The notes below the pieces were generated by a model. That model made no database searches. It was not told the origin of the DNA and saw nothing but the letters and a program-made list of their open reading frames with translations. The position numbers and the translations under genes were made by a program. From a virus: 52,296 bases of DNA. Positions 963 to 51,550 of the stretch are shown here, one piece after another; the first letter of the stretch is position 1, and every line of letters starts with the position of its first letter. The DNA is taken from IMG/VR virus record IMGVR_UViG_3300044639_004171, positions 1-52,296 of that record; one strand, 5' to 3'.

Positions 963-2777
963 ATGGGAGCATTATTAGAATCAGGTCTTGTTGGTAATAT
1001 CGGTCTAAAACACCTTAAAGTTATCAAAGAAGACACAATCGGAAAATGGGACAAATTAGGATTCTTAGAGGGTCTTAAAGGTCACATGAGAGAAAACATC
1101 GCTCAGCTTTATGAAAACCAAGCTAGCTATTTAATAAACGAAGCTTCAACTACATCTGATACAGGTGCATTTGAAACTGTGGTTTTCCCTATCGTTAGAA
1201 GAGTATTCTCTAAATTGTTAGCTAACGATATCGTATCAGTACAGGCAATGAACTTACCTATTGGTAAATTGTTCTACTTTGTACCTAACATCCAGAACTA
1301 TACAGATACTCCAACACTTGCTGGTGCTTCTGAGCACTACGCACCTTATGGAGCACCTAATGGTCCTGCAACACCTAACGAAGGGTATAATTACAACAAT
1401 GGTAGAGACCTTTATGATAGATTTTATGAAGGTAATGAACCAGCGTTAGACCCACCAGGTTTGTTCGATTATTCGAAAGGTTCGTTTTCAACGATTACAT
1501 CTGCTGTAACTTCAGTTGTAACTGCACAGTGGAATAACACAACGTTGAATCTTGAACCTGCTGCTTATGCTACTGATAACTACAGAAAAGTATTAGTAAT
1601 CATGAGTGGTTTTGCAAATGCTGCAGCTGGTAAATTGATTGGACCAGACGGTAACCCAATCGATACAGAATCATTCTTGTCTGATTTAACAATTTATGGT
1701 GTTTCGGCAAACCCAACCACTGCAGGTGGTGGTCCTTACTTATTCAGAGTTGTTACTCAAAGATATGGTAAAGGTATAGTTCAGTATGGTGATAATAACG
1801 ACACATTAGTGTGGCCTAATTCACTTACGGATGGTGGTCAATATGACAACATTTGTGATGTGAATGGTGACATTTATTTGGAAATCGACCTTCAAGTACC
1901 TGTATGTATTACATGTGGTAACTCAATGGACGGTTACACAGGGTCTACATTTTCTTCTACAACTGCGAACAACGCAGCTTTCTCAGCTACTTACAGATTG
2001 TATAAGAACTTGGAATTCGAAGATAAAATTGGTGAAGTTTCATTTGACCTTATGTCTGTAACAGTTTCAGTTACTGAAAGAAAGTTGAGAGCACAATGGT
2101 CACCTGAAATGGCACAAGACGTTGCGGCATTCCACAATATTGATGCTGAAGCTGAATTGACAGCTTTATTGTCTGAGCAAGTTGCTGCTGAAATCGATAG
2201 AGAAATCTTGAGAGACCTTAGAAAAGGTGCGGCATGGAACTTGAGATGGGACTACAACGGATGGAAGAGATTAGGTAATGGTACTGGTGCTGTTTCATAC
2301 ACTCAAAAAGACTGGAATCAAACTTTGATTACTGCAATCAACCAATTGTCAGCACAAATCCACAAATCAACTTTGAGAGGTGGTGCTAACTGGATTGTTG
2401 TGTCTTCTGAAGTTTCAGCAATTTTTGATGATTTGGAATATTTCCACGTATCAAACGCGGCACCTGAGCAAGACCAATACAACATGGGTATTGAAAGAGT
2501 AGGTACTTTAGCTGGTAGATACCAAGTTTATAGAGACCCTTACTTCCCACCAAACCAAGTATTGATTGGTCACAAAGGAACATCGCTTCTTGACACTGGT
2601 TACATTTACGCACCATATGTACCTTTACAACTTACTCCAACAATGTATAACCCATTCAACTTCACACCTATCAAGGGTATCATGACTAGATACGCTAAGA
2701 AAATGGTTAATAACCGTTTCTATGGTAGAATCACAGTTGATGGAGTTAGAACATTCGATTTGAAAGAGTTGAGATAA
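963..2777 (+). CDS. 23: Major capsid protein, gp23-like
   Basis: This 604-residue protein is the expected major head subunit of a T4-like virion (T4 gp23 is 521 residues). The N-terminal part resembles the gp23 delta region: a 'LYENQ' segment near residue 50, then LINE|A at residues 57-61, which fits the gp21 prohead protease consensus (L/I)-x-E|(A/G). T4 gp23 is cut at almost the same place (E65|A66). The segment around residues 80-100 (PIVRRVFSKLLANDIVSVQAM, then NLPIGKLF) parallels the T4 'VRRAIPNLIAFDICGVQPMNSPTG' block. The C-terminal half is rich in aromatic and beta-type sequence, as expected for the HK97 fold. The start ATG follows an A-rich leader without a Shine-Dalgarno sequence. 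It lies directly downstream of the gp22-like scaffold and ends 20 bases before a strong terminator, which fits a highly expressed late gene. Extra length versus T4 lies in the middle (about residues 115-310), a possible surface insertion. Confidence 0.93.
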   Translation: MGALLESGLVGNIGLKHLKVIKEDTIGKWDKLGFLEGLKGHMRENIAQLYENQASYLINEASTTSDTGAFETVVFPIVRRVFSKLLANDIVSVQAMNLPIGKLFYFVPNIQNYTDTPTLAGASEHYAPYGAPNGPATPNEGYNYNNGRDLYDRFYEGNEPALDPPGLFDYSKGSFSTITSAVTSVVTAQWNNTTLNLEPAAYATDNYRKVLVIMSGFANAAAGKLIGPDGNPIDTESFLSDLTIYGVSANPTTAGGGPYLFRVVTQRYGKGIVQYGDNNDTLVWPNSLTDGGQYDNICDVNGDIYLEIDLQVPVCITCGNSMDGYTGSTFSSTTANNAAFSATYRLYKNLEFEDKIGEVSFDLMSVTVSVTERKLRAQWSPEMAQDVAAFHNIDAEAELTALLSEQVAAEIDREILRDLRKGAAWNLRWDYNGWKRLGNGTGAVSYTQKDWNQTLITAINQLSAQIHKSTLRGGANWIVVSSEVSAIFDDLEYFHVSNAAPEQDQYNMGIERVGTLAGRYQVYRDPYFPPNQVLIGHKGTSLLDTGYIYAPYVPLQLTPTMYNPFNFTPIKGIMTRYAKKMVNNRFYGRITVDGVRTFDLKELR

Positions 2778-11929: not shown

Positions 11930-11932
11930 ATA

Positions 11933-12979: not shown

Positions 12980-12980
12980 A

Positions 12981-16293: not shown

Positions 16294-16304
16294 TTTTTTG
16301 TATT

Positions 16305-17722: not shown

Positions 17723-17725
17723 AAT

Positions 17726-19173: not shown

Positions 19174-19176
19174 AAT

Positions 19177-20618: not shown

Positions 20619-20621
20619 TAA

Positions 20622-23130: not shown

Positions 23131-23140
23131 ACAAAAAGTT

Positions 23141-30843: not shown

Positions 30844-33800
30844 ATGAATTGTGTTAAATATAGTATAAAAAATAGTGGTACTACCGTAGTCACTTTCAGT
30901 TATCAAAGATGTGATAATTCCGAATTCGAATCACAGGTCAAACTTGCTCCAAATCAAAATAAAACAATTTGGGCAATAAAAGATACTTTGAATATCCCAA
31001 ATTTTTTTTCCAACACAACATCAGTTGAGGAGGTTTTAGAGACTATACCAGAGTGTGTTACCTTAGTCAATATTTTTGGTGTGGGAACTTTCTATTACAA
31101 TCCCTCAACAAATATTAGGGGTCCTCAAATGGTTATACCAAATGATATTACACAATCGTTAGATGTTGCACATTCACAAGAAAAACTTTGGAAATTATAT
31201 AACCCTGCACCTTTTACTTATGTTATTAGAGAATGGAGTCTGTTAGGTGACCCACCTTACCAAGTCTCTTCAACTTACAGGGATTTGACTTTTCCGAATA
31301 ATATTGTTATCACTGCTCCTGCTAGCCCTGGTCTTTGTCAAGCACCGAATGGTGATTTGGTATTCATTGATTTTGAAAGGAACGTTTGGGAGCTTACAAT
31401 ACCAACAGCACCGTCTACACTCATGACAGGAACGTTGAAATATCAACTACCCCCGGGTTATTTTGTGGGTGGTGATTTTTTGGTCACCGTAAATAGTAAA
31501 TTATTGGTTGCTTCAGATAAAGAAATAGGAGGAGTTCCATATATTGTATTATATCAATTCGATTATAATACAGGTAATTTTGAATTTGAAAGTAAAACTG
31601 TTGCGATAGATAACCTTACTGGTACGGGAGGTATTGCAATATTCAACAACGAAATATACATTTATGGTGTTTATGTTTATAAAATGGATAAGACATCACC
31701 GTATGGTGGTGTGAGGATATCGAATTTAGGTGCGCAGGGAGCATCATCGACTATAAAATGTAATACCGCATTTATGATTGGTTCAGAGACTCCCACACCT
31801 ACTCCAACACCGACAACAACACCAACTGTTACGCCAACAACTTTTACGGGAGTTACACCCACCGCAACTTCAACAGTGCCTGTAACTCCAACTCCAACAC
31901 CTACTTCACAACTATGTTATTCATATGCTTCATTCGATATTGACTGTAATAATTCTGTAATTGAGTATATCGATTGTTGTGGAAACTGTGATTATTCAGG
32001 ACCTTATACTATAGGAACAGGTTATACGTTGACAGGTGTTTGTATTCAAAATGAATCTATAACAGGACAACACGTTTCTAATATTGTGTATAGTGGGTCA
32101 TGTATTTGTGATATAACACCTACACCTACTCCTACAGTAACAAATACGGCTACACCTGGTGTAACACCTTCTTGTACTCCAACAGAGTCTGAAACACCTA
32201 CTCCTACTCCAACCGCTACAGAAACTCAAGCAGCTGAAACACCTACTCCTACTCCAACCGCTACAGAAACTCAAGCAGCTGAAACACCTACTCCTACTCC
32301 AACTAATACAGAAACTCAGGTTGCTGAGACACCTACTCCTACTCCAACCGCTACAGAAACTCAAGCAGCTGAAACACCTACTCCTACACCAACCGCTACA
32401 GAAACTCAAGCAGCTGAAACACCTACTCCTACTCCAACCGCTACAGAAACTCAAGCAGCTGAGACACCTACACCAACTCCTACTGTGACAAAAACTTGCA
32501 CACCAACTTTAACTGAGACACCTACACCTACTCCAACTAATACAGAAACTCAGGTTGCTGAGACACCTACACCAACTCCTACTGTGACAAAAACTTGCAC
32601 ACCAACTTTAACTGAGACACCAACTTGTACACCGACATTCACACCAACCTCTACAAAAACATGTTGTGAAATTAATATTCTAACAAACTCATCTCTTGAC
32701 GTTAGCATAGAGGGCGTCACAATAAATGGAAGTTCGGCTACTTATGTTTCGGGTCAACCGTTACCTAACACACCAGGTAATGGAACATTCTTGTGTTCGA
32801 CTACTGTTGGTACCGTAGACGTTAGAGTTTCTGTATTCAACTCTGTTGCCGCACAAAAAATAACACTAACAGACAGTTTTGGTAACGTTTATTGTTCAAA
32901 TATAACAGGTACAGGTCCTTCAAATTATGATTTCAATGGTATAACATTCAATTGTGAAACGGCTCTGACTATCTTGGCGGAGGATGGTTCATGTACTCCA
33001 CTACCTGAGACTTCCACTCCTACACCGACTGAAACACCAACACCAACACCTACAGCAACAAGCAGTGAAACTCCCACAAATACACCAACTCCTACAGCAA
33101 CGGAAACCCAAGCCGCTGAAACACCTACACCAACACCAACTCCTACGGCTACAGATTTAAGTACTATAACTACATATACAATTTCAGGATGTACTAATCT
33201 AAATGTTTTAGTTGTCGATTTAGGACCAGGATTAATAGTTCCTGGAGATGTAAACTATTACACATTCACAGGAGCAACACCAAGTGGATGTTATTCAGTC
33301 ATTGGTAAGATAAATGCTCCGATAGACGACGCGTTTACCGCATCATTTGGATATGGTGGATGTAATGATTGTGAGATTTCTAATATAACTCCAACCCCAA
33401 CTAATACACCAAGTGAAACTCCAACTAATACACCTACTGAAACAGCAACTAACACACCAACTGAAACTTTAACATCTACTCCTACACCAACAAATACCGA
33501 AACATCAACCTCTACACCTACACCAACAAACACATCAACACAAACTCCAACTCCATCACCAATTTTAAACTGTGAAACATTTACTTTCATAGGTAACAAT
33601 GCTACAACAACAAGTAATAGTGCGATAAATGATGGAACATCAGGATGGGATTCATCGGCATATTCTTTAGAGACATTTACTGGTCCTGTTTCCGTAACCT
33701 TCCAAACTTCTGCGAATGGTAATATTTTAATGGGTGGATTCTCTTACAACCCAACCGCTACCCCTGGCAGCACATATGAGGATACGTCATATGGTATTTA

Positions 33801-34959
33801 CCTGTATAATAGTGACCAAATTGAAATATATGAAAACGGTGGTCAAGTTGCCGTTTTAAATGTCGGTACTGTTGTTTCATCATCTGATGTGTGGAAAGTG
33901 GATTATGATGGAATAAGTGTAAAGTATTATTATAATTCAACTTTAATTTACACATCAACCAACGCTGTAACACAACCATTACATGTATTCTTCCCTCTTT
34001 TCACTCCTAATGAAGGGGCTGTTGATATTTGTGTTATAGGAACATTATCACCAACACCTACCCCTACACCAACTTTAACTCAAACACCAACTACAACAAT
34101 AACTGAAACCCCAAGTGAAACACCTAGTGAAACACCAACGAACACACCAACACCAACTACAACTGACTTAAGTTCGGTTACTACATACACAATTTCGGGA
34201 TGTACCACTTTGAACGTATTAGTTGCTGATTTAGGACCATCGACATTAGCATCTGGTGACGTATTCAATTTCACATTCACAGGAGGAACACCAAGTGGAT
34301 GTTATAGAATTGTTGAGAAGACCGTGGCAACTCCAACAGACGGTGCAACACCACTTCTTTTCTATGTTAACTGTGCAGCATGTGAGGCAACTTTAGTAAC
34401 ACCTACACCAACAACTACAAGTACGCCAACACCAAGTGTAACTAATACTGGAACACCATCAGTTACTCCAACATTAACGCCAACACCAAGTGTTACACCT
34501 GAACCAGTAACAGGATATTCATTTAATTTAATTGTATTACCATACAATTTTCCAACAACGGGTAATACAATTATGAATAGTGCTCCTTCAATCACTTCAG
34601 GAAGTACAAATCCAAATGAATTGACAACAAGTGGTAGAGGAATATATTGGAACTCAATTGACACTGATGGAATTGATAGAACAAATTATTTCTCACAATT
34701 TACAGGTCAAAGTATTACAATTACAATGACTCAAACAGGAAGTACCGCGATTTACTCTGGTGATACAAACGCATTCAAATATTGGTCAGCTAATACAGGA
34801 ACACCTCCAGGTGTTGCGGGCGATGGATTTGTGTTCGGTACAGGAATCAGTGTTCCGCCAATTACAGGGAACACAGGTAACGCTGTTTTGATTCAATCAG
34901 CATCAACTAGTTGGAACACAGGGCAGACTGTTTACATAAGTGCAGTTCTGAACGTTTAA
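30844..34959 (+). CDS. Giant mucin-like Thr/Pro-repeat fibre protein (1371 aa)
   Basis: The order of parts is: shared N-terminal module (1-55); a beta-propeller-like domain (about 60-310) homologous to that of the gene at 41284 (ending 'MDKTSPYGGVRI...GASS'); PTP linker; a Cys-rich domain (SYASFDIDCNNSVIEYIDCC); a repeat array of TPTPTPTATETQAAE units (about residues 450-590); a beta domain; further PTP linkers separating two copies of an 'TYTISGC..LNVLV.DLGP' domain; a lectin-like domain (near 920-1060); and a C-terminal domain (SFNLIVLPYNF...). The extended Thr/Pro stretches resemble mucin stalks, rich in O-glycosylation acceptor Thr. Neighbouring glycosyltransferases include a GT60 member. 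This is probably a long exposed fibre. No autotransporter or signal sequence is present. Confidence 0.75.
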   Translation: MNCVKYSIKNSGTTVVTFSYQRCDNSEFESQVKLAPNQNKTIWAIKDTLNIPNFFSNTTSVEEVLETIPECVTLVNIFGVGTFYYNPSTNIRGPQMVIPNDITQSLDVAHSQEKLWKLYNPAPFTYVIREWSLLGDPPYQVSSTYRDLTFPNNIVITAPASPGLCQAPNGDLVFIDFERNVWELTIPTAPSTLMTGTLKYQLPPGYFVGGDFLVTVNSKLLVASDKEIGGVPYIVLYQFDYNTGNFEFESKTVAIDNLTGTGGIAIFNNEIYIYGVYVYKMDKTSPYGGVRISNLGAQGASSTIKCNTAFMIGSETPTPTPTPTTTPTVTPTTFTGVTPTATSTVPVTPTPTPTSQLCYSYASFDIDCNNSVIEYIDCCGNCDYSGPYTIGTGYTLTGVCIQNESITGQHVSNIVYSGSCICDITPTPTPTVTNTATPGVTPSCTPTESETPTPTPTATETQAAETPTPTPTATETQAAETPTPTPTNTETQVAETPTPTPTATETQAAETPTPTPTATETQAAETPTPTPTATETQAAETPTPTPTVTKTCTPTLTETPTPTPTNTETQVAETPTPTPTVTKTCTPTLTETPTCTPTFTPTSTKTCCEINILTNSSLDVSIEGVTINGSSATYVSGQPLPNTPGNGTFLCSTTVGTVDVRVSVFNSVAAQKITLTDSFGNVYCSNITGTGPSNYDFNGITFNCETALTILAEDGSCTPLPETSTPTPTETPTPTPTATSSETPTNTPTPTATETQAAETPTPTPTPTATDLSTITTYTISGCTNLNVLVVDLGPGLIVPGDVNYYTFTGATPSGCYSVIGKINAPIDDAFTASFGYGGCNDCEISNITPTPTNTPSETPTNTPTETATNTPTETLTSTPTPTNTETSTSTPTPTNTSTQTPTPSPILNCETFTFIGNNATTTSNSAINDGTSGWDSSAYSLETFTGPVSVTFQTSANGNILMGGFSYNPTATPGSTYEDTSYGIYLYNSDQIEIYENGGQVAVLNVGTVVSSSDVWKVDYDGISVKYYYNSTLIYTSTNAVTQPLHVFFPLFTPNEGAVDICVIGTLSPTPTPTPTLTQTPTTTITETPSETPSETPTNTPTPTTTDLSSVTTYTISGCTTLNVLVADLGPSTLASGDVFNFTFTGGTPSGCYRIVEKTVATPTDGATPLLFYVNCAACEATLVTPTPTTTSTPTPSVTNTGTPSVTPTLTPTPSVTPEPVTGYSFNLIVLPYNFPTTGNTIMNSAPSITSGSTNPNELTTSGRGIYWNSIDTDGIDRTNYFSQFTGQSITITMTQTGSTAIYSGDTNAFKYWSANTGTPPGVAGDGFVFGTGISVPPITGNTGNAVLIQSASTSWNTGQTVYISAVLNV
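32191..32613 (+). repeat. Tandem 45-bp (15-residue) Thr/Pro repeat array with 54-bp variants
   Basis: Six consecutive 45-base units (32191-32460) encode E-TPTPTPTATETQAA with small variants (NTETQVA). They are followed by a 54-base unit (TPTPTPTVTKTCTPTLT), another 45-base unit and a second, nearly identical 54-base unit. The near-identity at DNA level indicates recent unit duplication, and copy number is likely to vary between relatives. Confidence 0.9.
33151..34400 (+). repeat. Duplicated 75-80-residue beta domain within the giant fibre
   Basis: Two segments, about 33151-33385 and 34162-34400, encode homologous domains that share TTYTISGC, LNVLV, DLGP, GDV, TFTG and TPSGCY, each with four Cys. 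They flank a different, lectin-like domain. The duplication shows modular growth of the fibre. Confidence 0.8.
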
Positions 34960-35016: not shown

Positions 35017-36249
35017 ATGAATTGTTTTAAATACACCCTGAAAAATACAGGAGATACTCTTGTCACTTTTAATTATCAGAAATGTGTTACCGCAGAGTGG
35101 GAATATCAGGTGAAAGTTTTACCTAATGAAACCAAAAGAGTCTGGGCTATCTCGGACACTTTTGCGATTCCATCATTTTTTTTACAGAATGTAGATATAC
35201 AAACAGAAAACTTTTTTAGAGGGGCGGAAAATTGCACAACCTGTAATACCATAAATACACCCTGTAACGGTCAGGTTGTTGTTAGTAACGGTATATCAAT
35301 AACAGGTCTTTCACAAAATGCAAACTGTGCAACAAATACTTTCACATACGGTCCAAACAACTACCCATGTCAGGGAGTTCCAATCACAATTGGGCCTGGA
35401 CCTGGTGGCGTGAGTTCTTTTGCTTCGGGTTCAACAATAGTTTTTATTTTTAGTCAACCACTAAACTCTCTGATGTTTAATTCAGGTGTGTGGAATGGTG
35501 ATGCTTCAAACGGAGACAGATTATATATAACAACGAACGCGGGAACTCCAAATATTGCTCAATGTGCGGGTTGTCCTATGCAGATTGGTAATGGAGTAAT
35601 AACTGCTGTCAATACTGATGGGTTAGCCAGATTTATTGTTGAAACAACCACACCTTTTACCCAAATAACATTTTCTCAGGGACCAAGCATTCAATATCAA
35701 GGTGTTAGAATTAGTTTATGTGCATTGAGTGCGGCGCCACCACCTACGCCATCACCAACCCCGACAACTACAATCACACCGACAAAAACCCCTACCAATA
35801 CCCCTACACCAACTGTCACTCCAACAACCACGCTTACGCCAAGTCCTACTAGTACTAACACACCAACACCTTCAATAACCGCTACAAATACAGTGACACC
35901 TACACCAACATCAACAATACCAGCAACACCAAGTGTGACTCCGACTAATACAGAAACTCCAACCGTCACACCGACTAATACCGTAACACCAAGTGTAACT
36001 CCAACTAACACTGAAACACCAACTTCAACACCCACACCTTCTCTAACATCAGGACTTCCAAGTTGTAGTGGATATACTTTAAGTGCCGGTGTTGGTGGAG
36101 GTTCAATAGAATGGATTGGTTGTGATGGTAATCCTTATTCTCATTTCATTCCTGACGCATCATCTTATTCTATCTGTACAGACGGGACTGAGTATGTTGT
36201 GACTGGAGGATTGATAAATCAAGATTCGGGACCATATAGTTGTACGTAG
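35017..36249 (+). CDS. PTP fibre paralogue (410 aa)
   Basis: It begins with the shared module ([20 protein letters not shown] ... [21 protein letters not shown]). A Cys-containing beta domain follows (about 70-235: [16 protein letters not shown] ... 'YQGVRISLC'). Next is a 110-residue Thr/Pro stretch (about 240-345) and a compact C-terminal domain ([20 protein letters not shown]). It differs from the two propeller-bearing paralogues in its second domain, so domain shuffling between a common base and variable heads is visible. A terminator follows 25 bp after the stop. Confidence 0.75.
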
Positions 36250-41283: not shown

Positions 41284-42570
41284 ATGAGTTGTAAAAAAAT
41301 TAAAATATCGAATACAGGTGACAATATAATTACGTTCAATTATCAAAAATGTTTTACCTCTGAGTGGGAATATCAAGTACCTTTGAACCCAAACCAATCA
41401 AAATCTTTTTGGGTTTTAGATGAAACACTTTCTTACTCTAATTTTTTTGAAAATTCTATTTTTATCGAAACAATTTTTTCAACATTACCTGATTGTGTTT
41501 TAATTACATTGAATAATTTTGGACAGACTTACTATTATAATCCATTGTTGGATATAAGTGTAAACTTTCAAGTCCCAAATAGTGGTGGTGGTTTAAATCC
41601 ATGGCAAGTCGCTCATACAAATGATAATTTATGGTTATTATATCCCGCGCCATTTGGTTTTAGATATACTATTAGGGAATGGAATATTTCTGGACAGCCA
41701 CCATATACAATTTCTCCGAATTACAGGTTGTTGGATTTTCCTTCAAATGTTCCAATTTTAAATAATTCTTGGGGTTTAAGTGTTGCCGGCCCAAACAAAT
41801 TAGTTTTCGTGGATTATGATTGGAATGTATGGGAATTATCAATCCCGGCACCACCCCAAACCCAGATGAGTGGGACTATAAAATTTACACTTCCACAGAA
41901 TTCAAATTGGACTTTTATGATAACAAGTGATGGTAAATTTCTAAATGGTTGGTTCCAAGAGATTTCTGGAGTCTATTATATAGGAATAGACCAGTACGAT
42001 TACAATACAGGTAATTTTGAATTTAGAAGTCAAATTCAATCAGTTTCAAATAGTTCGTTTAATAATCCATTAGGGATTGCACAGTTTGAAGGAAAAACAT
42101 ACCTTTTTACCCTTTTGGGAATTTATAAATTTGAAATGAATTCTCCTTTTGGTGGTTCATTTGTTCATAATACTCAATTTGTGGGTGCGTCCTCCTTAGT
42201 CTCTTGTTCTTTTTCTTCATATCCATCCGTGACACCAACTCCAACCATTACACCAACCCAAACTAACACACCTACGCCAACACCTACAATTACACCATCT
42301 AATACTCCGGCATCCGCACCATATAATATTTCCTCAGGTGATTCCGTATTACCTTTATGTGACCCAAAAACACTTACTCAAACAATATATTCATCAGAGC
42401 TCGGTTGGTTCGATGTGATAGTAGGTGTTACTATTTTTTATACAGATAGTAGTTTAACTACTCCATTTGATGGTGGAAACCTTTGGTATACTAATAGTAC
42501 AGATTCTTTGACGGGGTATTACCGTGTTGATAATTCAGGTCTTGTAATTGAATATGAAGGTCCATGTTAA
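41284..42570 (+). CDS. PTP fibre paralogue with propeller-like domain (428 aa)
   Basis: It begins with the shared module (MSCKKIKISNTGDNIITFNY ... TSEWEYQVPLNPNQSKSFW). Residues about 60-310 form a beta-propeller-like domain clearly homologous to that of the 1371-residue fibre: both have 'YYYNP', 'VAH.....LW.LY.PAPF', 'YTIREW', 'GQPPY' or 'GDPPY', 'LVF(V/I)D' and 'QYDYNTGNFEF' or 'QFDYNTGNFEF'. A short PTP linker (TPTPTITPTQTNTPTPTPT) and a 90-residue C-terminal domain follow. It is a shorter version of the giant fibre, duplicated 6 kb away. Confidence 0.75.
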   Translation: MSCKKIKISNTGDNIITFNYQKCFTSEWEYQVPLNPNQSKSFWVLDETLSYSNFFENSIFIETIFSTLPDCVLITLNNFGQTYYYNPLLDISVNFQVPNSGGGLNPWQVAHTNDNLWLLYPAPFGFRYTIREWNISGQPPYTISPNYRLLDFPSNVPILNNSWGLSVAGPNKLVFVDYDWNVWELSIPAPPQTQMSGTIKFTLPQNSNWTFMITSDGKFLNGWFQEISGVYYIGIDQYDYNTGNFEFRSQIQSVSNSSFNNPLGIAQFEGKTYLFTLLGIYKFEMNSPFGGSFVHNTQFVGASSLVSCSFSSYPSVTPTPTITPTQTNTPTPTPTITPSNTPASAPYNISSGDSVLPLCDPKTLTQTIYSSELGWFDVIVGVTIFYTDSSLTTPFDGGNLWYTNSTDSLTGYYRVDNSGLVIEYEGPC

Positions 42571-42597: not shown

Positions 42598-42641
42598 TAT
42601 TTATGGCTGAATGAGTAAGGTAAACTTCACAATATTGTGAA
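42598..42641 (+). promoter_or_regulatory. DNA polymerase leader: TATTTAT box, two chained mini-ORFs, 16-bp palindrome over the start
   Basis: TATTTAT lies at 42598-42604. A 3-codon ORF (42603-42614, MAE) ends in TGA that overlaps the ATG of a 9-codon ORF (42611-42640, MSKVNFTIL). Its TGA in turn overlaps the GTG start of the polymerase (GTGA, 42637-42640). The perfect palindrome TTCACAATATTGTGAA (42626-42641) covers that start and could form an RNA hairpin with a 4-base loop, or a DNA operator. T4 gp43 represses its own translation through a hairpin near its start, so autoregulation is an attractive but unproven reading. Confidence 0.5.
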
Positions 42642-45465
42642 AGCCAATAAACCACTCGTAAGTTATATGATTAGTAATCAAGAGATTGAATCATTCCTAC
42701 AAGGAAATGACCCCGAAGAATTTATCGTCGCCATTGAGTTTGATTATGTTTCAAACTCTATTTTCAAAATTAAAGAGATACCTAATAAAGGTAAAGAAAT
42801 TAGAAAGGACACATTTATTCCCTTTGCTTGGGTCGGTGATTTACGTGGACTAAAGTTTTACAACGATTCCAAAATAGCACAGAAAGAAGCTATGTCAAAA
42901 TATGGAATTGTTATTGAAAAGTTAGAAACCAAGGATAACGAACGATTACAAAATGGTCTGACATTCATGGTCAAATCCTTGAAAGGATATAGAGAGTTGA
43001 TTCAATTTTTCCGTGATGGTGGTTGTGACCCGTGGGGTGAAAAAACAAAAGATAAAATTTTAGTTTTACCTCCCGTAGAACAATATCTAATTTCCAAAGA
43101 GAAAAGATTATTCAAAGGGTTCCTCGATTACGATGACGTAACAAGGTTAGTTTTTGACTTGGAAACAAATGCGTTGGACCCAAAACAAGGTAGAATTTTT
43201 ATGATTGGTATCAAAACCAATAAAGGATATCACCGAGTTATAGAATGTTTAGAAGAAAAAGATGAAAAAAACGCTATCTTAGAATTCTTCAAAGTCATAG
43301 ATGAAATTAAACCAAGTATCATCGGTGGTTATAATTCCGCGAACTTCGATTGGGATTGGATATTTCAAAGAAGTCAGATTTTGGGAATTGATTTGAGAAA
43401 GTCAATAAAATCCTTACACCCCCAACATTCTTACACAAGAAAAGAATCCATTCTCAAACTAGCCAACGAAGTTGAGGATTATTTACAAACATCAATATGG
43501 GGTTATAACGTAATTGACATTATTCATGCTGTTAGGAGAGCTCAAGCAATCAATTCTAATATCAAGGCCGCAGGTCTTAAATACATTACTAAATTTATCG
43601 GTAAAGAGTCTGCGGACCGTGTTTATATTGAACACACTGATATTGGAAAAATGTATGAGAAAAAAGAAGAATATTGGTTGAATACACAAAATGGAAAGTA
43701 TAAAAAATCAGGCTTAGATACTGAAATAGATAATGCTTGTTCCAAAAGACCTGACATTTATATAAAAACAACCGGAGATAACCTTGTTGAAAGATACCTC
43801 GATGATGACCTTGAGGAAACTTTGGCGGTTGATAAAGAATTCAACCAAGCTTCATTCCTACTGGCGTCAATGATTCCCACAACTTATGAGAGAGTTGCCA
43901 CTATGGGTACCGCTACTCTTTGGAAAATGTTGATGTTGGCTTGGTCATATAAACACAAGTTAGCCATTCCAGAAAAACAATCTAAAACAGACTTCGTAGG
44001 AGGTCTTTCCCGACTACTTAAGGTAGGATATAGTAAGAATGTATTGAAGTTAGACTTCTCCTCTCTATACCCTTCTATTCAGCTTGTACACGATGTTTTT
44101 CCCGATTGTGATGTCACAGGTGCAATGAAAGGAATGTTAAAATATTTTCGAGACACCCGTATCCGTTATAAACAACTTGCCGAAGAATTTGAGAAGACTG
44201 ACCCACAAAAATCAGCATCCTATTCGAATAAACAATTACCAATTAAAATCTTCATCAATTCAATGTTCGGGGCTCTATCCGCACCTCAGGTTTTTGCTTG
44301 GGGTGATATGTACATGGGTGAACAGATTACTTGTACAGGTCGTCAGTATCTACGGCAGATGATTAAATTTTTTATGTCTCGGGGTTATACTCCATTAGTT
44401 ATGGATACTGATGGTGTGAACTTCTCTAGTCCTGATGATGTAGATAAACATAGGTACATAGGTCGAGGTTTGAATTGGAAGGTAAAAGTTGGTAAAGAAT
44501 ATACAGGACCCGAAGCAGACGTTGCGGAGTATAATGATATTTTCATGAGGGGTGAAATGGCTTTAGATACCGATGGTGTTTGGCCTTCGTGTATCAATTT
44601 GGCAAGGAAGAACTATGCTGTGATGGATGCCAAGGGTAAAATAAAACTTACGGGTAATTCCATCAAATCAAAAAAACTCCCTCTTTATATTGAAACTTTC
44701 TTGGACAAAGGAATCAAACTTTTGTTAGAAGGTAAGGGTAAAGATTTCATTGAATATTATTATGAATATCTTCAAATAATTTTCGACCAAAAAATTCCAT
44801 TGTCTCAAATCGCTCAGAGAGCAAAAGTGAAGTTGACCTTAGATGAGTATAGAAAAAGATTGACACAAAAGACCAAAGCTGGTAATAGTATGTCAAGAAT
44901 GGCCCACATGGAGTTAGCAATACAAGAAGGTTTAAACGTGAATCTTGGTGACGTTATAATGTATGTAAACAACGGAAAAAAGGCATCTCAAGGAGATGTA
45001 CAAAAAATGACTGCAAAACAAATCAAAGATTTGAATGAATACAATCGTGTACAAAATCCAAATTTAAAACCCATAGAAGATGGTGTGATTGTTAACTGTT
45101 ATATGTTGAAGGGTGATATTTTGGACAATAATCCAAACCTGACAGGTGAGTACAACGTTCCAAGAGCAATTGTTACTTTTAACAAAAGAATCGAACCTTT
45201 GTTAGTAGTCTTCCAACAAGAAGTACGTGATAATTTGCTAGTGACTGACCCAGAACAGAGAGGTATATTCACAACCGCTCAATGCGAACTGATAAATGGT
45301 ATGCCATTCGAAGAAGGCGACCAAGACAAATTAAAAGAAGATGTTCTGGATATTACTGAACAAGAAATAAATTATTGGGATAGAAGGGGTCTAAGTCCAG
45401 AATATATTTACGAATTAGCGGAAGAAAATTGGAAAGACCAATTAGGAGTTCTTGAGTCCGTCTGA
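42637..45465 (+). CDS. 43: Family B DNA polymerase, gp43-like
   Basis: The 942-residue replicative polymerase has all core motifs: exo I LVFDLETNAL (Asp174, Glu176), exo II GGYNSANFD (Asn233 to Asp238), motif A KLDFSSLYPS (Asp473), motif B KIFINSMFGA (Lys537, Asn541, Gly545) and motif C VMDTDGVN (Asp590, Asp592). Length fits T4 gp43 (898). Both proofreading and polymerase sites look active. I keep the GTG start at 42637 because upstream mini-ORFs couple to it; an ATG ten codons later (42667) is an alternative that would still keep the fold. The C-terminus overlaps the convergent gene by 24 bp. Confidence 0.95.
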   Translation: MKANKPLVSYMISNQEIESFLQGNDPEEFIVAIEFDYVSNSIFKIKEIPNKGKEIRKDTFIPFAWVGDLRGLKFYNDSKIAQKEAMSKYGIVIEKLETKDNERLQNGLTFMVKSLKGYRELIQFFRDGGCDPWGEKTKDKILVLPPVEQYLISKEKRLFKGFLDYDDVTRLVFDLETNALDPKQGRIFMIGIKTNKGYHRVIECLEEKDEKNAILEFFKVIDEIKPSIIGGYNSANFDWDWIFQRSQILGIDLRKSIKSLHPQHSYTRKESILKLANEVEDYLQTSIWGYNVIDIIHAVRRAQAINSNIKAAGLKYITKFIGKESADRVYIEHTDIGKMYEKKEEYWLNTQNGKYKKSGLDTEIDNACSKRPDIYIKTTGDNLVERYLDDDLEETLAVDKEFNQASFLLASMIPTTYERVATMGTATLWKMLMLAWSYKHKLAIPEKQSKTDFVGGLSRLLKVGYSKNVLKLDFSSLYPSIQLVHDVFPDCDVTGAMKGMLKYFRDTRIRYKQLAEEFEKTDPQKSASYSNKQLPIKIFINSMFGALSAPQVFAWGDMYMGEQITCTGRQYLRQMIKFFMSRGYTPLVMDTDGVNFSSPDDVDKHRYIGRGLNWKVKVGKEYTGPEADVAEYNDIFMRGEMALDTDGVWPSCINLARKNYAVMDAKGKIKLTGNSIKSKKLPLYIETFLDKGIKLLLEGKGKDFIEYYYEYLQIIFDQKIPLSQIAQRAKVKLTLDEYRKRLTQKTKAGNSMSRMAHMELAIQEGLNVNLGDVIMYVNNGKKASQGDVQKMTAKQIKDLNEYNRVQNPNLKPIEDGVIVNCYMLKGDILDNNPNLTGEYNVPRAIVTFNKRIEPLLVVFQQEVRDNLLVTDPEQRGIFTTAQCELINGMPFEEGDQDKLKEDVLDITEQEINYWDRRGLSPEYIYELAEENWKDQLGVLESV

Positions 45466-45777
45466 AGAAAGTATATACCAGGTGTCCCTTATAAATTTAA
45501 ATTCTACACAGGCAAATTTGTCCAAATCAACTTCATCATATTCTTCATCAATCTTATTGATGTCGGGTTTTACTTTCAAGTTTGTCATAGATTTAACAAC
45601 AACGTGGTCTGATGTCATAGAGTCCAAAGTTAGAGTTGCATTAGGCACTCCTCTTACGACAATTACCGCTTCTCCAGTTACTTTATAATCTTTTTCAGTC
45701 ACAACAGAACTATCTGAAGTTTCTATTGCAAACCCGTTTATAATTCTCTTTGATGGTATATTTTTTACGATTGCCAT
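45442..45777 (-). CDS. Hypothetical beta-rich virion-type protein (111 aa)
   Basis: It starts MAIVKNIPSKRIINGFAIET and is mostly alternating hydrophobic beta sequence (VTGEAVIVVRGVPNATLTLD), ending 'FKFIRDTWYILSSDGLKNS'. I do not recognise a family; the look is that of a head or tail decoration protein. Its ATG overlaps the stop of the gp13-like gene (TAATG), and its 3' end overlaps the convergent polymerase gene by 24 bp. Confidence 0.55.
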   Translation of the reverse strand: MAIVKNIPSKRIINGFAIETSDSSVVTEKDYKVTGEAVIVVRGVPNATLTLDSMTSDHVVVKSMTNLKVKPDINKIDEEYDEVDLDKFACVEFKFIRDTWYILSSDGLKNS

Positions 45778-46910
45778 TATATTACGTATATTTGTCGAGG
45801 CATTGCCCTGAATTTCATTTGTTTATTCAAATTTTCTGCTATTTGAGCTTCTCTTTCCATAACTTTTTCAGGTCTTAGTCTTGTGAGCCATCCTTCAGCA
45901 CCAATCAACTCTTCCAATAGTTTAGATTTTTCATCTTTAGCTTCTGTTTGAAGTATTTGATAATCCATAATCAACTCAGAATCAGGTGTCTTTAGATTTC
46001 CACTATACTTTCCTCTGACCCTTGATAAAGTCTCTTTTGCATAAGCTGTGAACCATCTTCTCACCCATTGTTGACCCGGAACATTCAACTCTTCCCAACT
46101 CAATTCAGAAATTGGTACGTCAGTAGGTAGTTTAATTATGTCAGGGTTTGCTTTGAGACAATCGGCTCTATCATCAGGACCTACGTCGTAGTACCAATAC
46201 CATACGGCCTTACCCTCATATAAACTGTAATTACTCCAATTAAAACGACCTCCAGGAGTGTTGTATAAAAATATATTTTTCTTACCGTCCGGTAATCCTG
46301 TAATTCTATATGTCAGAGAACCGCCCAATATTCTGTTTAGAATATTTGCTTCTTGCATCCTAATCAAGTAATCAAAACCACTCATCATAAAATAAGAACC
46401 TTGATAACCTAATTGAGCGTAACCAGCTTCGTTAGCACCTAAACCGATACCCCCAAAACCAAATCCACCAATACCACCTAATCCAAAAGCGGTCCACGGT
46501 TGATTGGAAAACCATAATAATTCATTTACCTCTCTACCTGCAGGAATTTCATAATTTTGTTTGTTTCTTTCTAAAACGAAATAGTCTTTCTTTAAAACCC
46601 AAGGCCCCATTGTTTGTAAACCAACAATTTTTGAATATGAGTACGCGAATTGTTGTTCAAAATCCATGGTTCTTGTTACCAATGCTCTTGCCACAGATTT
46701 TTCATTCATGTTTAAATTGACTAAGTTTACCCATTGACTATCAATTAGCCATTGTAAAACATATTCTTCATAATCTCCAATAGATAGTTCCATCAAAGAA
46801 TCCAACATTTCATCCGTCAATTCAACACTTCTTAAAGGTGCTCCTAATTGATGTTTAATTCTTGTATATATTCTACTTCTTTCTGGTTCAGGGATTACTG
46901 CCATAGACAA
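45777..46910 (-). CDS. 13: Neck protein, gp13-like
   Basis: Residues about 10-45 (RIYTRIKHQLGAPLRSVELT, then DEMLDSLMELSIGDYEEYV) match the N-terminal signature of T4 gp13 and cyanophage homologues (LGAP...VELT...). In T4, gp13 and gp14 complete the head and form the neck to which the tail binds. The protein is 377 residues (T4: 309) with an extra Gly-rich stretch (FGLGGIGGFGFGGIGLG, near 140-156) and a C-terminal helical region. A TATTTATAAAATAAAC box lies 9 bases before the ATG. gp14- and gp15-like candidates lie at 50628 and 51552. Confidence 0.7.
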   Translation of the reverse strand: MSMAVIPEPERSRIYTRIKHQLGAPLRSVELTDEMLDSLMELSIGDYEEYVLQWLIDSQWVNLVNLNMNEKSVARALVTRTMDFEQQFAYSYSKIVGLQTMGPWVLKKDYFVLERNKQNYEIPAGREVNELLWFSNQPWTAFGLGGIGGFGFGGIGLGANEAGYAQLGYQGSYFMMSGFDYLIRMQEANILNRILGGSLTYRITGLPDGKKNIFLYNTPGGRFNWSNYSLYEGKAVWYWYYDVGPDDRADCLKANPDIIKLPTDVPISELSWEELNVPGQQWVRRWFTAYAKETLSRVRGKYSGNLKTPDSELIMDYQILQTEAKDEKSKLLEELIGAEGWLTRLRPEKVMEREAQIAENLNKQMKFRAMPRQIYVI

Positions 46911-46926: not shown

Positions 46927-48420
46927 TCATACTAAGGTATAAATCAAACTACTGACAGGGAATATGTAAGCGTTACTACCAAACGTTGTGGCATTATTTT
47001 CTAAAATTATTGTTTCGAATTTATTGGTGAAAATCATCCAATCTTGTTCATAAGGTAAAATTTTACCGGTGGTTTCTACGTAAACTAAATCATCAACTAT
47101 TTTGTAATTTGTTAATGGCTTGATTTGAAAAGTATTTATTTTTTCATTTTTGAAAATTTGACCGTCTGTCCCTTGATTATCACTTTCGGAACCAAACTCA
47201 CTTTGAATATCTACATTTTCTAATCCGAATTCATTCTCCAATCTTTTTTTCGTTTGATTTTCTACCTTGTCCCCTTTTGTCTTACTATTACTCAAGTTTG
47301 ACATAATCTTTTGAAAGAAAGGGGAATCCTCAACAAATATTTTACTGGAGTATTTTTTTAAAATTGATGTGAGTTTTTTTACTGCGAGCACTTGTTCTTT
47401 TGGTGTTCTGTTTTGAAAATGTAATATATCACGATTATTATCTTTGAGTAATCTGTTTACACTTTTGGTAATTAGACAAAAAGCTCTGTAGTTACCTGCT
47501 AAATAACTGATGTTGTGCCTTTCTCCATTTTTGTAAAATCCTTGCATTATATTTTTTTCAGGGTCTTTAGGTTTAAATTCTAACCAATCTACTTGTTTAA
47601 GGGCGGCATAGATTCCCATTCCATATAATTTACTTATTTCATTGTCTTTCATCAAATTTTGAAAAAATTTTTCGTCCTCTGTTGAACAATCCACAATATA
47701 AGATTTACCTTCTGTCATTATTTGTTTGGATATTTTATTTTCTAATAACTTTGTTTGTGTTTTCAATTCAAACAATTTACTAACAAAATCCCAATTCACT
47801 ACTTTCCAAAAATTAGAAATGTATTCATCGCGTTTATTTTTATATTTCAAATAATATGCGTGTTCCCAAAGGTCAAGACCTAATAAAGGAAAACCACCAC
47901 CTTCAATAATGTTCATTAGAGGGTTGTCCTGATTAGGGGTTGACATTATCTTGAGTTTATTGTTCTTTGTTAGAACCAACCAAACCCATCCTGAACCAAA
48001 TCTTTCTTTGGCAATAAGTTCAAATTTTTTCTTAAAATTTGTAAATGTTTTAAATTCAGAAAAAATTTTCTTTTGTAGTTCGCCCTTTAATCTAACGGGT
48101 GTGGGTGTCAACATGTTCCAAAAAAGTGCGTGGTTAAATGCCCCACCTGCGTTGTTTCTGACTGTTTTGTCGTATCTACTAATATTTTTTATAATTTTTT
48201 CTAAATCCCAATCCCCCATTTTCTTTTTCGATAAAGCCTGATTTAATTTGTCTACATATCCCTTATAATGTTTATTATAATGGAAATCCATAGTTTCGGC
48301 ATCAATAAAGGGTTTCAGAGCTGAGTAGGAGTATGGTAATTTTTCAATTCCGATTTTTTTCATTTCCTCAATCAATATTTCTCTTTGTGATTCGGATTTG
48401 TTTTCGTTCTTTACATTCAT
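46927..48420 (-). CDS. Mn-type superoxide dismutase fused to a nuclease-like C-terminal domain
   Basis: Residues about 27-220 are an Fe/Mn superoxide dismutase, which turns superoxide into oxygen and peroxide. All four metal ligands are present: His47 (FHYNKHY), His97 (FNHALFWN), Asp183 and His187 (GLDLWEHAYY). 'NNAGGAFNH' and Gln164 in STPNQDNPLM match Mn-type rather than Fe-type enzymes. Residues about 235-497 are an added domain of unknown family. Its end has a PD-(D/E)XK-like spacing: Glu387 in a helix, GTDGQIF (Asp419) and FQIK (Gln432-x-Lys434), suggesting a nuclease fold, possibly inactive. A MTE|G sequence at the domain junction is close to the gp21 protease consensus. It lies between the gp13-like gene and the Snf2 helicase, with a TATTTATAG box 12 bases upstream. 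Confidence 0.85.
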   Translation of the reverse strand: MNVKNENKSESQREILIEEMKKIGIEKLPYSYSALKPFIDAETMDFHYNKHYKGYVDKLNQALSKKKMGDWDLEKIIKNISRYDKTVRNNAGGAFNHALFWNMLTPTPVRLKGELQKKIFSEFKTFTNFKKKFELIAKERFGSGWVWLVLTKNNKLKIMSTPNQDNPLMNIIEGGGFPLLGLDLWEHAYYLKYKNKRDEYISNFWKVVNWDFVSKLFELKTQTKLLENKISKQIMTEGKSYIVDCSTEDEKFFQNLMKDNEISKLYGMGIYAALKQVDWLEFKPKDPEKNIMQGFYKNGERHNISYLAGNYRAFCLITKSVNRLLKDNNRDILHFQNRTPKEQVLAVKKLTSILKKYSSKIFVEDSPFFQKIMSNLSNSKTKGDKVENQTKKRLENEFGLENVDIQSEFGSESDNQGTDGQIFKNEKINTFQIKPLTNYKIVDDLVYVETTGKILPYEQDWMIFTNKFETIILENNATTFGSNAYIFPVSSLIYTLV

Positions 48421-48445: not shown

Positions 48446-50194
48446 TTATCTCATTTCGTTGATTCTTTGGAGAATTTCTTCAACATAGTCTGCGGAGTTG
48501 TTATTATCACCCAATACGGTAGAGATAACTTGTTTTTTTTTATTCAATATATCATATATAATTCCTTCGATAGTGTTTTCAAAGATGGGATAGTAAACTA
48601 ACACATTACTTTTTTGACCATATCTATATGCTCTATCCTCAGCCTGTGAATGGTCCGAAGGTAAAAAAGATAAATCATTCATTATTACAGCCTCAGCTGA
48701 GGTAAGGGTAATTCCAACTCCCGCGGCTTTTATATTTCCCACAAAAACTTTTATTTTTTCATTTTCTTGGAATTGGTCTACTGAAAATTGTCTCTCAGTT
48801 TTGGACATAGAACCATCAAGTTTGACAGCAGTTTTTCCGAAATGTTCTAAAATTTTATTTAAAGAGTTTGTAAAATTACAAAAAATTATAACCTTTTTAT
48901 CTTGTTCAATTATGTTTTCCGCTAGCTCTATTGTTTGTGTTATTTTTTCGTCTGCAATTATTTGTCTGACTTTGGTGAGCTTAGTAAATTGAACTGTAAG
49001 TGATTTAGATTCTTCAGGATTTTTCTCGTACCAATTATAATATTCACCCATTACTTCTTCATATTCCTTGGATTTTAATCTCAGATAAATTGGAGTAATG
49101 ATTTTGTCAGGTAAATCAAGTACGTCTTCCTTCAATCGCCTCAATGTTAGGTTTGAGGTTCTGTCTCTAAGCTCCTCCAAATTTGAAGCACCCATGACAT
49201 TCCAAACCTTTCTTGGGCCGACCCTAAATTGATATCCACTACAATATCTTATTACGTAAGCCATCCAATTTTTTGCAACAGGTGAATCAACCAAACTCAA
49301 AAGATTATAATAATCTATGGGTCTCGAGGTCATAGGTGTTCCTGTCAACAACCAAATTCTATCAACTTTTTTAACAATATCATTTATTAGTTTGGTTCTT
49401 TGTGCTTGAGCATTCTTGATATAGTGTGCTTCATCAACAATAACCAAATCAAAATTGGCGCTAATAATTTGCGATTCATCTTTTCTTTTAGTGTCATGGA
49501 AATTTTTTATTATGTCGTAGTTTATTATTACAAAATCGTAATTAGGGTCAAAGTTTTTACCTTCTGCGATATAGATAGATTTTTTTGAATAATTTTCTAT
49601 TTCACGTTTCCAATTTATTTTTAGAGTTGCTGGACATATTATCAATACTTTTTTTGCCCCGCATTCCAAAGATGCAATTATGGTTGAGGTGGTTTTACCC
49701 AAACCCATATCGTCAGCTAAAATATATTTTTTGTTCTCAACTAATTTTTGAATTGCTTCTTTCTGATGAGATAAAGGCGGTCTATTAGAATATTTTTCGA
49801 AATCTAAAACAACATCTTTAACCGTGTTGTCTTTAATCATTGCTGCTTTAGGAATCCAAAATTCATTCAATTGGTCTGTCTCAAAAAATCTACCCCATAT
49901 GTGATAAGCTTTTTCTTTTTCTGCTAATAATTTTTCCACCCAAATTTTTTCCGGAATTTGATGAAGTAACCTATCATCCGCAAATTTTTGTGCGAAATAA
50001 GCATCAAGTATAACCCATTTTTTGGCAACTTTGGGTTGTTTGTCAAAGTTATTTATAATGTACTCGGCCTGACTTCTTGTTGGGTAAAACTTTTTATTTA
50101 TCTCAGATTTCCTTTTGAGTTCTAAGATATAATTATTAGCCCCATCGTAGGTTTCTAATAATGAAATTGCTTTTGATTCTAAAGTGTTCGACAA
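48446..50194 (-). CDS. Snf2-family DNA helicase/translocase
   Basis: The motifs are Walker A ILADDMGLGKTTS (about 158-170), 'VLIICPATLKINW' (Ia), 'LVIVDEAHYIKN' (DEAH at 254-257), 'IWLLTGTPMTSRP' (III) and the C-terminal lobe with 'VFVGNIKAAGVGITLTSAEAV' and QAEDRAYRYGQ (VI). These are Snf2 hallmarks, nearest to the SMARCAL1-like group that remodels branched DNA. The protein has 582 residues and no accessory domain. In T4 a comparable role in fork regression is taken by UvsW, a different SF2 type. The start is TTG at 50194, the first possible start after an upstream stop, so it is likely genuine. Confidence 0.85.
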   Translation of the reverse strand: MSNTLESKAISLLETYDGANNYILELKRKSEINKKFYPTRSQAEYIINNFDKQPKVAKKWVILDAYFAQKFADDRLLHQIPEKIWVEKLLAEKEKAYHIWGRFFETDQLNEFWIPKAAMIKDNTVKDVVLDFEKYSNRPPLSHQKEAIQKLVENKKYILADDMGLGKTTSTIIASLECGAKKVLIICPATLKINWKREIENYSKKSIYIAEGKNFDPNYDFVIINYDIIKNFHDTKRKDESQIISANFDLVIVDEAHYIKNAQAQRTKLINDIVKKVDRIWLLTGTPMTSRPIDYYNLLSLVDSPVAKNWMAYVIRYCSGYQFRVGPRKVWNVMGASNLEELRDRTSNLTLRRLKEDVLDLPDKIITPIYLRLKSKEYEEVMGEYYNWYEKNPEESKSLTVQFTKLTKVRQIIADEKITQTIELAENIIEQDKKVIIFCNFTNSLNKILEHFGKTAVKLDGSMSKTERQFSVDQFQENEKIKVFVGNIKAAGVGITLTSAEAVIMNDLSFLPSDHSQAEDRAYRYGQKSNVLVYYPIFENTIEGIIYDILNKKKQVISTVLGDNNNSADYVEEILQRINEMR

Positions 50195-50205
50195 TATAAA
50201 TTCAA

Positions 50206-50571
50206 TTAAAATTTAACACCATTTCCATAATCTATAAAAAGTTCTTCACCAACTTTAATTTTTCTCAAAGATTTAAAAACAAAAACATTTCTATCTGTGT
50301 CAGAATCCCAACTTACGTTTGGAACCTCATTGTGATTGTAATATGAACCGTATCCTAAAACTAAAACATGGTTTATCCAATTTTCTGATTTAGGCCAACA
50401 AAAAGCATAATTTTGAAAAAAGGGTAATTTTTCTTGTCTTCTATGAGGAAATAGTAGAAAGGGACAGGTATCTATAATTTCATCATACTGAATCTCTTCC
50501 GAACAAAAAACACCTAATCCGTGTAACGGGCTGTCTTTGAGATATATTTTACTTGGTGGACGTATTTCCAT
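50206..50571 (-). CDS. Minimal SET-domain protein (putative lysine methyltransferase)
   Basis: The 121-residue protein is almost only a SET domain: 'KDSPLHGLGVFCSEEI' (HGLGVF at 17-22), 'YYNHNEVPNVSW' (the N-H-x-x-x-P-N SAM/active-site segment at 79-85) and 'VGEELFIDYGN' (GEExxxDYG with the catalytic-type Tyr115). SET proteins methylate lysine side chains. No pre-SET or post-SET Cys cluster is present. It is followed 11 bp later by the Snf2 helicase start. Possible targets are a host or phage protein; host nucleoid or ribosomal proteins, or virion proteins, are all possible. The function in a phage is unknown to me. Confidence 0.75.
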   Translation of the reverse strand: MEIRPPSKIYLKDSPLHGLGVFCSEEIQYDEIIDTCPFLLFPHRRQEKLPFFQNYAFCWPKSENWINHVLVLGYGSYYNHNEVPNVSWDSDTDRNVFVFKSLRKIKVGEELFIDYGNGVKF

Positions 50572-50627: not shown

Positions 50628-51140
50628 ATGCAAAAGTTGGTTCCTATAACAAGGTTAGGTAAATTTTTCGGTGGGGAGGATTTTGCTTTAGATATTGACA
50701 TGGGTGAAGAGTGGTTGATTGGTGATATGAATTTTACTGTTGTGTTATACAGAATTGATAGATATAAAACTAAAACTGATGATGTCTATGGGGAGGTTTT
50801 GGAGGATGGTATTCAGTTTATGGCTCCTGTAGAATTGAAAGGGTTGGTACAAATATTAGCTCCAACAAATAAATTATTAGGAACTTCAAGAGTCAAACAA
50901 CAAGAGCCGGGAAGTATGAAATTCTCCATTTATCAAAAAACGTTAGATGATTTACAGGTTGAGGTAAATATGGGAGATTATTTTGGTTATTATGAAACAG
51001 AGGACCGAGTAAGATATTATACGGTCATAAACGATGGAAGAGTAAAATCTGATAATAAACATACGTACGCTGGCTATAAGCCCTTCTATAGAACTATAGA
51101 GGCGACTTGGGTTAGTGAAAATGAATTTAGAGGAATATAA
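50628..51140 (+). CDS. Probable neck protein, gp14-like (170 aa)
   Basis: No strong motif is visible. The arrangement 'YRIDRYKTKTDDVYGEVLED' followed by 'PVELKGLVQIL', then 'KQQEPGSMKFSIYQKTL', 'VEVNMGDYFGYYETEDRVRY' parallels the order of T4 gp14 (a YVPRE segment, then an 'EPKEGDLIYFP' type segment), though the protein is shorter (T4 gp14 is 256). Position supports it: a gp13-like gene lies at 45777 and a gp15-like gene at 51552. It shares one base with the next start. An alternative is an unrelated head-completion protein. Confidence 0.4.
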   Translation: MQKLVPITRLGKFFGGEDFALDIDMGEEWLIGDMNFTVVLYRIDRYKTKTDDVYGEVLEDGIQFMAPVELKGLVQILAPTNKLLGTSRVKQQEPGSMKFSIYQKTLDDLQVEVNMGDYFGYYETEDRVRYYTVINDGRVKSDNKHTYAGYKPFYRTIEATWVSENEFRGI

Positions 51141-51550
51141 TGAAATTGATAATTACAGAGTCACAGTTTGACTCATTATTTATGGGACAACGAGTTATGG
51201 TTTACTATAACTTAAACAGAGAAACATTTTCGATTTCATATTTGGGAAAAGTTATTATGCATGCTGATTATGTGAAACTTAAAGACGTTGAGTTCCGAGT
51301 TAGACCTGGCGGTAAAGAAAGAGTCAGAGATGAAAAAAGAAAAAATGTTCATGCTTTTGTTATAGGAACTCTTTTAGATTTTTGTGAATTTCCATGTGAT
51401 AGAATTGAAGAACCATATAGTGATTTAATTGTAACTTACAATCCATATGTGAATGATACGTTTGTTTTAAAAGGTACAAACAAGCCAATATATTTTGCTG
51501 AGGAAGTTGAAATGGTGAACATGAGAAATAAAATTTACATAACTCAGTAA
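51140..51550 (+). CDS. Hypothetical protein with MKLIITESQ N-terminus (136 aa)
   Basis: It begins MKLIITESQFDSLF, similar in style to the LTExD leader motifs of other small genes here. The rest is mixed beta ('RVMVYYNLNRETFSISYLGK', 'ADYVKLKDVEFRVRPGG'). The family is unknown. It lies between the two putative neck/tail genes and shares one base with the first. Its stop is one base before the next start. ITE|S is near, but not equal to, the gp21 protease consensus. Confidence 0.55.
   Translation: MKLIITESQFDSLFMGQRVMVYYNLNRETFSISYLGKVIMHADYVKLKDVEFRVRPGGKERVRDEKRKNVHAFVIGTLLDFCEFPCDRIEEPYSDLIVTYNPYVNDTFVLKGTNKPIYFAEEVEMVNMRNKIYITQ

Follow-up and report, generated by a model that had tools for sequence, protein, structure and literature searches.

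A superoxide dismutase fused to a predicted PD-(D/E)XK-type nuclease domain in a lineage of T4-like phages

Superoxide dismutases (SODs) encoded by phages are usually classed among the auxiliary metabolic genes (AMGs) that help the host. Those of the PA5oct-like Pseudomonas phages and Vibrio phage 2.275.O lie, like the one analysed here, in large tailed phage genomes, but they are short stand-alone matches with only 27% identity to it. Several other phage SOD matches lie in short unannotated records that are probably host DNA, and the freshwater 'phage' MW462191 looks like a bacterial contig, with genes for beta-lactamase, LysR and aminotransferase. There is a precedent for a virion-packaged SOD in giant viruses (PMC9405923). 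In phage T4 the internal head proteins are packaged, processed and injected, and even nucleases have been packaged in experiments by fusing them to these proteins; the T4 prohead protease gp21 cuts after L/I-x-E (PMC9026906). Within the open-access literature we found neither a described SOD-nuclease fusion nor a phage virion SOD, and an architecture joining the two domains seems to be undescribed. It has already been deposited in UniProt as A0A6J5L953, a 501 aa 'superoxide dismutase' from an uncultured Caudovirales phage that is 43% identical over the full model, with the C-terminal domain undescribed in the entry.

We have analysed a stretch of viral DNA of 52,296 nucleotides (IMG/VR record IMGVR_UViG_3300044639_004171; hereafter the window). 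A preliminary description made from the sequence alone had pointed to a SOD fused to a PD-(D/E)XK-like domain. The gene is a single open reading frame of 497 codons beginning with ATG, and its features and those of other genes in the window are as follows.

46927..48420, minus strand: SOD-nuclease fusion gene, 497 aa, with full-length homologues
48364..48420, minus strand: residues 1-19, an N-terminal helix with (I/L)xE19 as its last residues in 81% of homologues; the motif is observed, a targeting function is inferred from it
47767..48363, minus strand: Mn-type SOD domain, residues 20-218, with ligands H47, H97, D183 and H187, plus Q164 (Pfam, PDB, homologue alignment)
47686..47766, minus strand: linker, residues 219-245, with low model confidence at 223-238 (model and alignment)
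47740..47748, minus strand: residues 225-227, a conserved motif of the form (I/L)-x-E; the window has LLE (I/L in 94%, E227 in 54/54 homologues)
47710..47718, minus strand: residues 235-237, a conserved motif of the form (I/L)-x-E↓G; the window has MTE, and 93% of homologues have I/L-x-E
46930..47685, minus strand: C-terminal PD-(D/E)XK-type domain, residues 246-497, about 250 residues (alignment, model, fold neighbours)
47026..47322, minus strand: predicted nuclease core, residues 367-465, a long helix with E387 and strands with GxD419 and Q432-x-K434 (model and alignment)
48446..50194, minus strand: UvsW-like helicase gene, directly upstream of the fusion and adjacent throughout (phrog_62 DNA helicase, 1.4e-113)
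45777..46910, minus strand: neck or head-completion protein gene (gp14-like), directly downstream of the fusion (phrog_211 head-tail adaptor, 4.2e-9)
45442..45777, minus strand: conserved 111-aa gene (p111), last in the operon (ORF list, locus comparison)
963..2777, plus strand: gp23 major capsid protein (PF07068, 8.4e-72), in which maturation is predicted at LINE↓A, near residue 60 (site aligned)

The SOD half matches PF00081 (2e-25) and PF02777 (5.5e-39) over residues 25-215, both above the curated cut-offs (132.8 and 89.5 bits, against 20.9 and 27). It also matches 162 PDB sequences, with a top value of 3.8e-60, and the best 60 of the 162 are all SODs. The metal ligands H47, H97, D183 and H187 are identical in all 54 members of a homologue set in which sequences are less than 90% identical to each other, and so are the active-site residues H51, Y55 and Q164. 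Q164 lies within NQDNP, a context of this glutamine that is typical of Mn-type SODs. The complete Mn-type SOD of the preliminary description, with four ligands and Gln164, is thus upheld, and judged by its sequence the SOD half is an intact enzyme with all catalytic residues present. The same description had considered the SOD fold as a scaffold, and this is disfavoured because every catalytic residue has been kept. Compared with the bacterial Fe/Mn SODs of the Bacteroidota the protein shares the whole fold, all the metal ligands and the Mn-type Gln164, but adds the N-terminal helix, a conserved linker and the 250-residue C-terminal domain. The closest cellular SODs seen are those of Sphingobacteriaceae, at 48-49% identity.

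At least 595 IMG/VR stretches are related to the full-length query, although this number may include SOD-only relatives. Both domains are found in one frame in 236 fetched locus copies from IMG/VR, comprising 120 distinct ORF sequences. So many distinct fused ORFs at one conserved locus rule out a frameshift, a misassembly or two merged genes, and bear out the earlier proposal that SOD and extra domain form one gene. Separate genes in relatives, with a frameshift in the window, were not seen. Contamination by host genome is ruled out: synteny is constant, and the window also contains genes for gp23, a polymerase, a UvsW-like protein and a neck protein. The architecture, for which the preliminary description had called for a database search, is present in both IMG/VR and UniProt.

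The gene order is fixed, with the UvsW-like helicase (preceded in part of the lineage by a SET gene), the fusion, the neck protein and p111 followed by DNA polymerase gp43 on the opposite strand. The protein of Flavobacterium phage immuto that the neck protein matches is annotated as a 'putative head completion protein'. Helicase, fusion and neck genes probably form one operon, since in the window the fusion is separated from the helicase gene by only 25 nt and from the neck gene by only 16 nt. The SET-domain protein gene (50206-50571, minus strand; PF00856, 4.8e-14) lies upstream of the UvsW-like gene, and a SET-like gene also adjoins a stand-alone nuclease homologue in megaphage LR756501 (L253, 5302-5739).

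Relatives of gp23 are found in Flavobacterium phage immuto, Microcystis phage Mel-JY01 and Rhodothermus phage RM378, which indicates a deep T4-like branch; a Bacteroidota host is plausible, and the gp23 similarity points to Flavobacteriia as plausible hosts. The phages that bear the fusion seem to form a widespread, uncultured, T4-like aquatic lineage in which it is common. The family B DNA polymerase (42637-45465, plus strand) has its nearest annotated relatives in Salinibacter and Nostoc/Anabaena phages (23-29% identity), and not in T4 gp43.

Within the C-terminal domain E387, GxD419 and Q432xK434 are invariant in 54 of 54 homologues. The D-to-Q spacing is 13 in 53 of them, so that the frame E-(32 to 34)-D-(13)-QxK is nearly constant; the spacing to which the preliminary description had drawn attention is a property of the family. 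The motif is conserved far beyond chance, because it is invariant while identity of the domain to that of the window has a median of only 30%, falling to 27% across the family. It contains the acidic...D...(D/E/Q)xK signature of the PD-(D/E)XK superfamily. G383, G410, D414, G417, Y457, C245 and C315 are also invariant in all 54. The two cysteines might be a redox pair, or have a metal-binding or structural role beside a SOD.

An AlphaFold model of the domain built from a 37-sequence alignment has a pLDDT of 90, with a helix (132-163) followed by strands, giving a helix and beta core. When this was compared with the PDB using Foldseek the first sensible neighbour was I-Ssp6803I (probability 0.90, E 0.12), with several Hjc Holliday-junction resolvases next. 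Every sensible neighbour belongs to PD-(D/E)XK, a superfamily with an alpha-beta-beta-beta core, but with E of 0.12 or more none is significant alone. I-Ssp6803I also has Gln before xK. The predicted core fold and the E...D...QxK arrangement resemble those of I-Ssp6803I and the archaeal Hjc enzymes, but the domain has no detectable sequence similarity to them and has an extra, mostly helical N-terminal part, together with the invariant Cys245 and Cys315. Matches in BFVD include proteins named PD(D/E)XK endonuclease and DUF4365 proteins, while a fold search with the full-length model gave mostly SOD-driven or weak matches.

No profile matches the C-terminal domain above its curated cut-off. Below threshold are DUF6602, the restriction enzymes EcoO109I and MjaI, whose weak Pfam matches span the GxD...QxK stretch of family members, and the PADLOC PD_DExK profile, again weak. 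Since all these are sub-threshold we call the domain PD-(D/E)XK-type and assign it to no named family. Pfam DUF6602 and MC4 were rejected as its identity, their matches being sub-threshold and partial, and an ANF_receptor match (E 0.1) is noise. The T4 head nuclease gp4 (TnsA-like; PF08722) is also a nuclease of a T4-like phage, and the fusion adjoins a neck gene, but the domain has no sequence or profile match to the gp4 family (phrog_218) and no profile match to gp2, and homology to T4 gp4 or gp2 was rejected. The PD-(D/E)XK reading of the preliminary description is therefore sustained by motif invariance, fold model, fold neighbours, sub-threshold profiles and nuclease-type paralogues taken together, and not by any one significant match. 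On sequence and model we are rather confident that the domain is of PD-(D/E)XK type, with nuclease activity as a prediction.

The C-terminal domain also occurs without a SOD. A 735-kb megaphage encodes a 290-aa stand-alone homologue that keeps E, GVD and QxK (hhalign 3e-16). A 198-kb relative has two paralogues with E, GxD and QxK kept (hhalign 5e-12 and 2e-7), which suggests a multi-copy nuclease family; their N-terminal parts differ (L265, 3907-4983, and L266, 2601-3608, both minus strand). The domain was not found in T4, immuto, Mel-JY01, RM378 or LR756508. At the locus of the fusion itself nine fetched loci (6 distinct sequences) carry the domain without SOD. In a midpoint-rooted neck-gene tree the five SOD-less members tested form one clade (97/90) nested within the SOD carriers, and for this reason a single loss of SOD is the simplest explanation. 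One 308-kb record of this clade contains no separate SOD gene elsewhere. From the SOD-less clade and the megaphage we conclude that the SOD is dispensable and that the nuclease-type domain is the constant part, which is new here. The earlier idea that redox sensing is coupled to DNA processing finds no direct support, and the nuclease-type domain is kept without SOD in some phages.

Conversely, the domain behind the SOD can change. Between loci L028 and L082 the SOD is 95% identical, and UvsW and the neck protein 88%, but the C-terminal domain only 26-31%. The type found in the window (type A) is one clade (100/100) in the C-terminal domain tree. In the flanking-gene tree the phages that carry it do not group together: two changes are forced and monophyly is seen in 0% of 200 bootstrap trees. 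This scattering means that the nuclease module has been exchanged horizontally while the SOD in front of it was retained. The C-terminal domain trees have long branches; the comparison of L028 and L082 is independent of the tree. On these sequence comparisons, phages exchange the nuclease domain while the SOD in front of it hardly changes, which is also new here. The two domains are known ones, in a seemingly undescribed architecture that has been selectively kept with swapping of modules.

In the disordered linker, residues 223-238 have low model confidence and are mostly variable across homologues, yet contain the two (I/L)xE motifs, in which the x position is variable; this pair of motifs is a further new observation. 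Gly follows residue 237 in 45 of 54 homologues. A third (I/L)xE ends the N-terminal helix at residues 17-19 (81%), and proteins of the SOD-less type have LSE at the position of the joint motif. (I/L)xE is a short motif. In five neighbouring proteins (2182 aa) used as a control there are four conserved (I/L)xE motifs with variable x, none of them close together or paired in a linker. A Poisson estimate from the control rate gives a chance of about 0.001 for the linker motifs, or about 0.02 allowing for the post hoc choice of the linker. The gp21-family protease PF03420 is found above cut-off in 8 of the 12 lineage records searched; these records may be incomplete, and the window is itself a fragment. 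LINE↓A is invariant in gp23 of nine aligned lineage members at the expected maturation position, which we take to be where the maturation cut of T4 gp23 falls.

Taken from these motifs, there is moderate evidence that the fusion is a prohead-protease substrate, and would hence be a head protein. With such conserved sites at the joint, both halves may be packed in the head and delivered to the next host. A virion protein was one option in the preliminary description, and it gains support from these sites and from the neck gene directly downstream. The T4 internal head proteins processed by gp21 (IPI-III and Alt) share the (I/L)xE motif and have a variable mature part behind a conserved front; the fusion differs in having no T4-type capsid-targeting sequence, and its packaging is a proposal. 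Its N-terminal helix has no clear resemblance to the T4 sequence, but residues 1-19 could possibly be a capsid-targeting propeptide, going by the motif. A helix like MKxxxxITExxLxxxIxxVIxE starts several proteins (4220-4678, minus strand, and 51140-51550, plus strand, in the window; L265 6791-7210; L266 1471-2211), and such helices are possible capsid-targeting sequences ending in (I/L)xE.

The best reading, to which we give a probability of about 0.45, is a protease-matured, head-packaged SOD plus a polymorphic nuclease. A T4-like late gene would encode a polyprotein comprising N-terminal targeting helix, active Mn-type SOD, cleavable joint and PD-(D/E)XK-superfamily nuclease, made together with the UvsW-like helicase and the neck protein during head assembly. 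This would enter the prohead, where a gp21-type protease would cut the joint behind (I/L)xE and probably cut behind E19 as well. SOD and nuclease would stay in the head and be carried with the DNA into the next host, where the SOD may limit superoxide damage and the nuclease may act on DNA of the host or of a competitor, or on branched DNA of the phage. More tentatively, targeting helix, working SOD and protease-cut joint might be the conserved carrier of a capsid-delivered 'polymorphic effector', an exchangeable nuclease that the prohead protease would mature and that would be injected along with the genome. The virus would then bring an antioxidant enzyme of its own and a DNA-cutting effector into the cell.

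A purely intracellular role in DNA processing also fits, because the operon includes a helicase. The protein might be an uncleaved bifunctional enzyme of the infected cell. Its nuclease would process branched or packaged DNA, either alongside the UvsW-like helicase or when heads are completed, and would stand in functionally for gp49, the Holliday resolvase, or gp4, the head nuclease; the SOD would be a tethered protective or structural partner. This agrees with the operon, which includes UvsW-like and neck genes in every context seen, with the Hjc-like fold neighbours and with the lack of endonuclease VII matches above cut-off. The gp4 family is unmatched in 20 lineage records, although that search ran without a positive control and so does not establish its absence. 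A fast-evolving, swapped domain is unlike a housekeeping DNA enzyme, however, and with two extra paralogues in one phage and no sequence link to T4 gp4 we consider this enzyme rather unlikely. It is more doubtful still that the SOD is an ordinary AMG for defence against reactive oxygen species (ROS), with an independent C-terminal domain joined by neutral accident in one lineage. ROS-defence genes including SOD are common in freshwater phages (PMC6802176), and the SOD can be lost, but the fusion has been kept though the SODs are down to 61% identical and the nuclease domains have been swapped. As the linker motifs are conserved too, the link between SOD and nuclease has probably been selected.

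The two remaining explanations concern the C-terminal domain. Its nearest PDB fold is a PD-(D/E)XK homing endonuclease and there are free-standing paralogues in the 198-kb relative, as might be expected of a selfish endonuclease attached to a SOD gene. Yet all members occupy one fixed locus, a recent insertion was never seen, and the SOD-less clade retains the domain at the same place, making this very unlikely. We give the least credence to a domain that is no nuclease, either with a coincidental motif or as a dead PD-(D/E)XK fold that binds DNA. The absence of significant PDB or Pfam matches would allow it, but E, GxD and QxK never vary and keep an almost constant spacing at an overall identity of 27-30%, and the same residues recur in the megaphage homologue and the paralogues.

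Should both halves be packaged and injected, as the head-packaging reading proposes, the phage particle would deliver a SOD, and there would be a new modular route for injected nucleases. Here a SOD is joined to a fast-swapping nuclease-type domain, and annotating such genes in viromes as ROS-defence AMGs can miss a nuclease effector.

Elsewhere in the window a long series of genes (11123-25652, minus strand) resembles those for glycosyltransferases, epimerases and other proteins of sugar metabolism, including a nucleotide-sugar epimerase (14568-15689, phrog_540). Three proteins on the plus strand (30844-34959, 35017-36249 and 41284-42570) have a related N-terminal stretch (M[NS]CxK...TFxYQxC...W), and are probably paralogous virion or fibre proteins.
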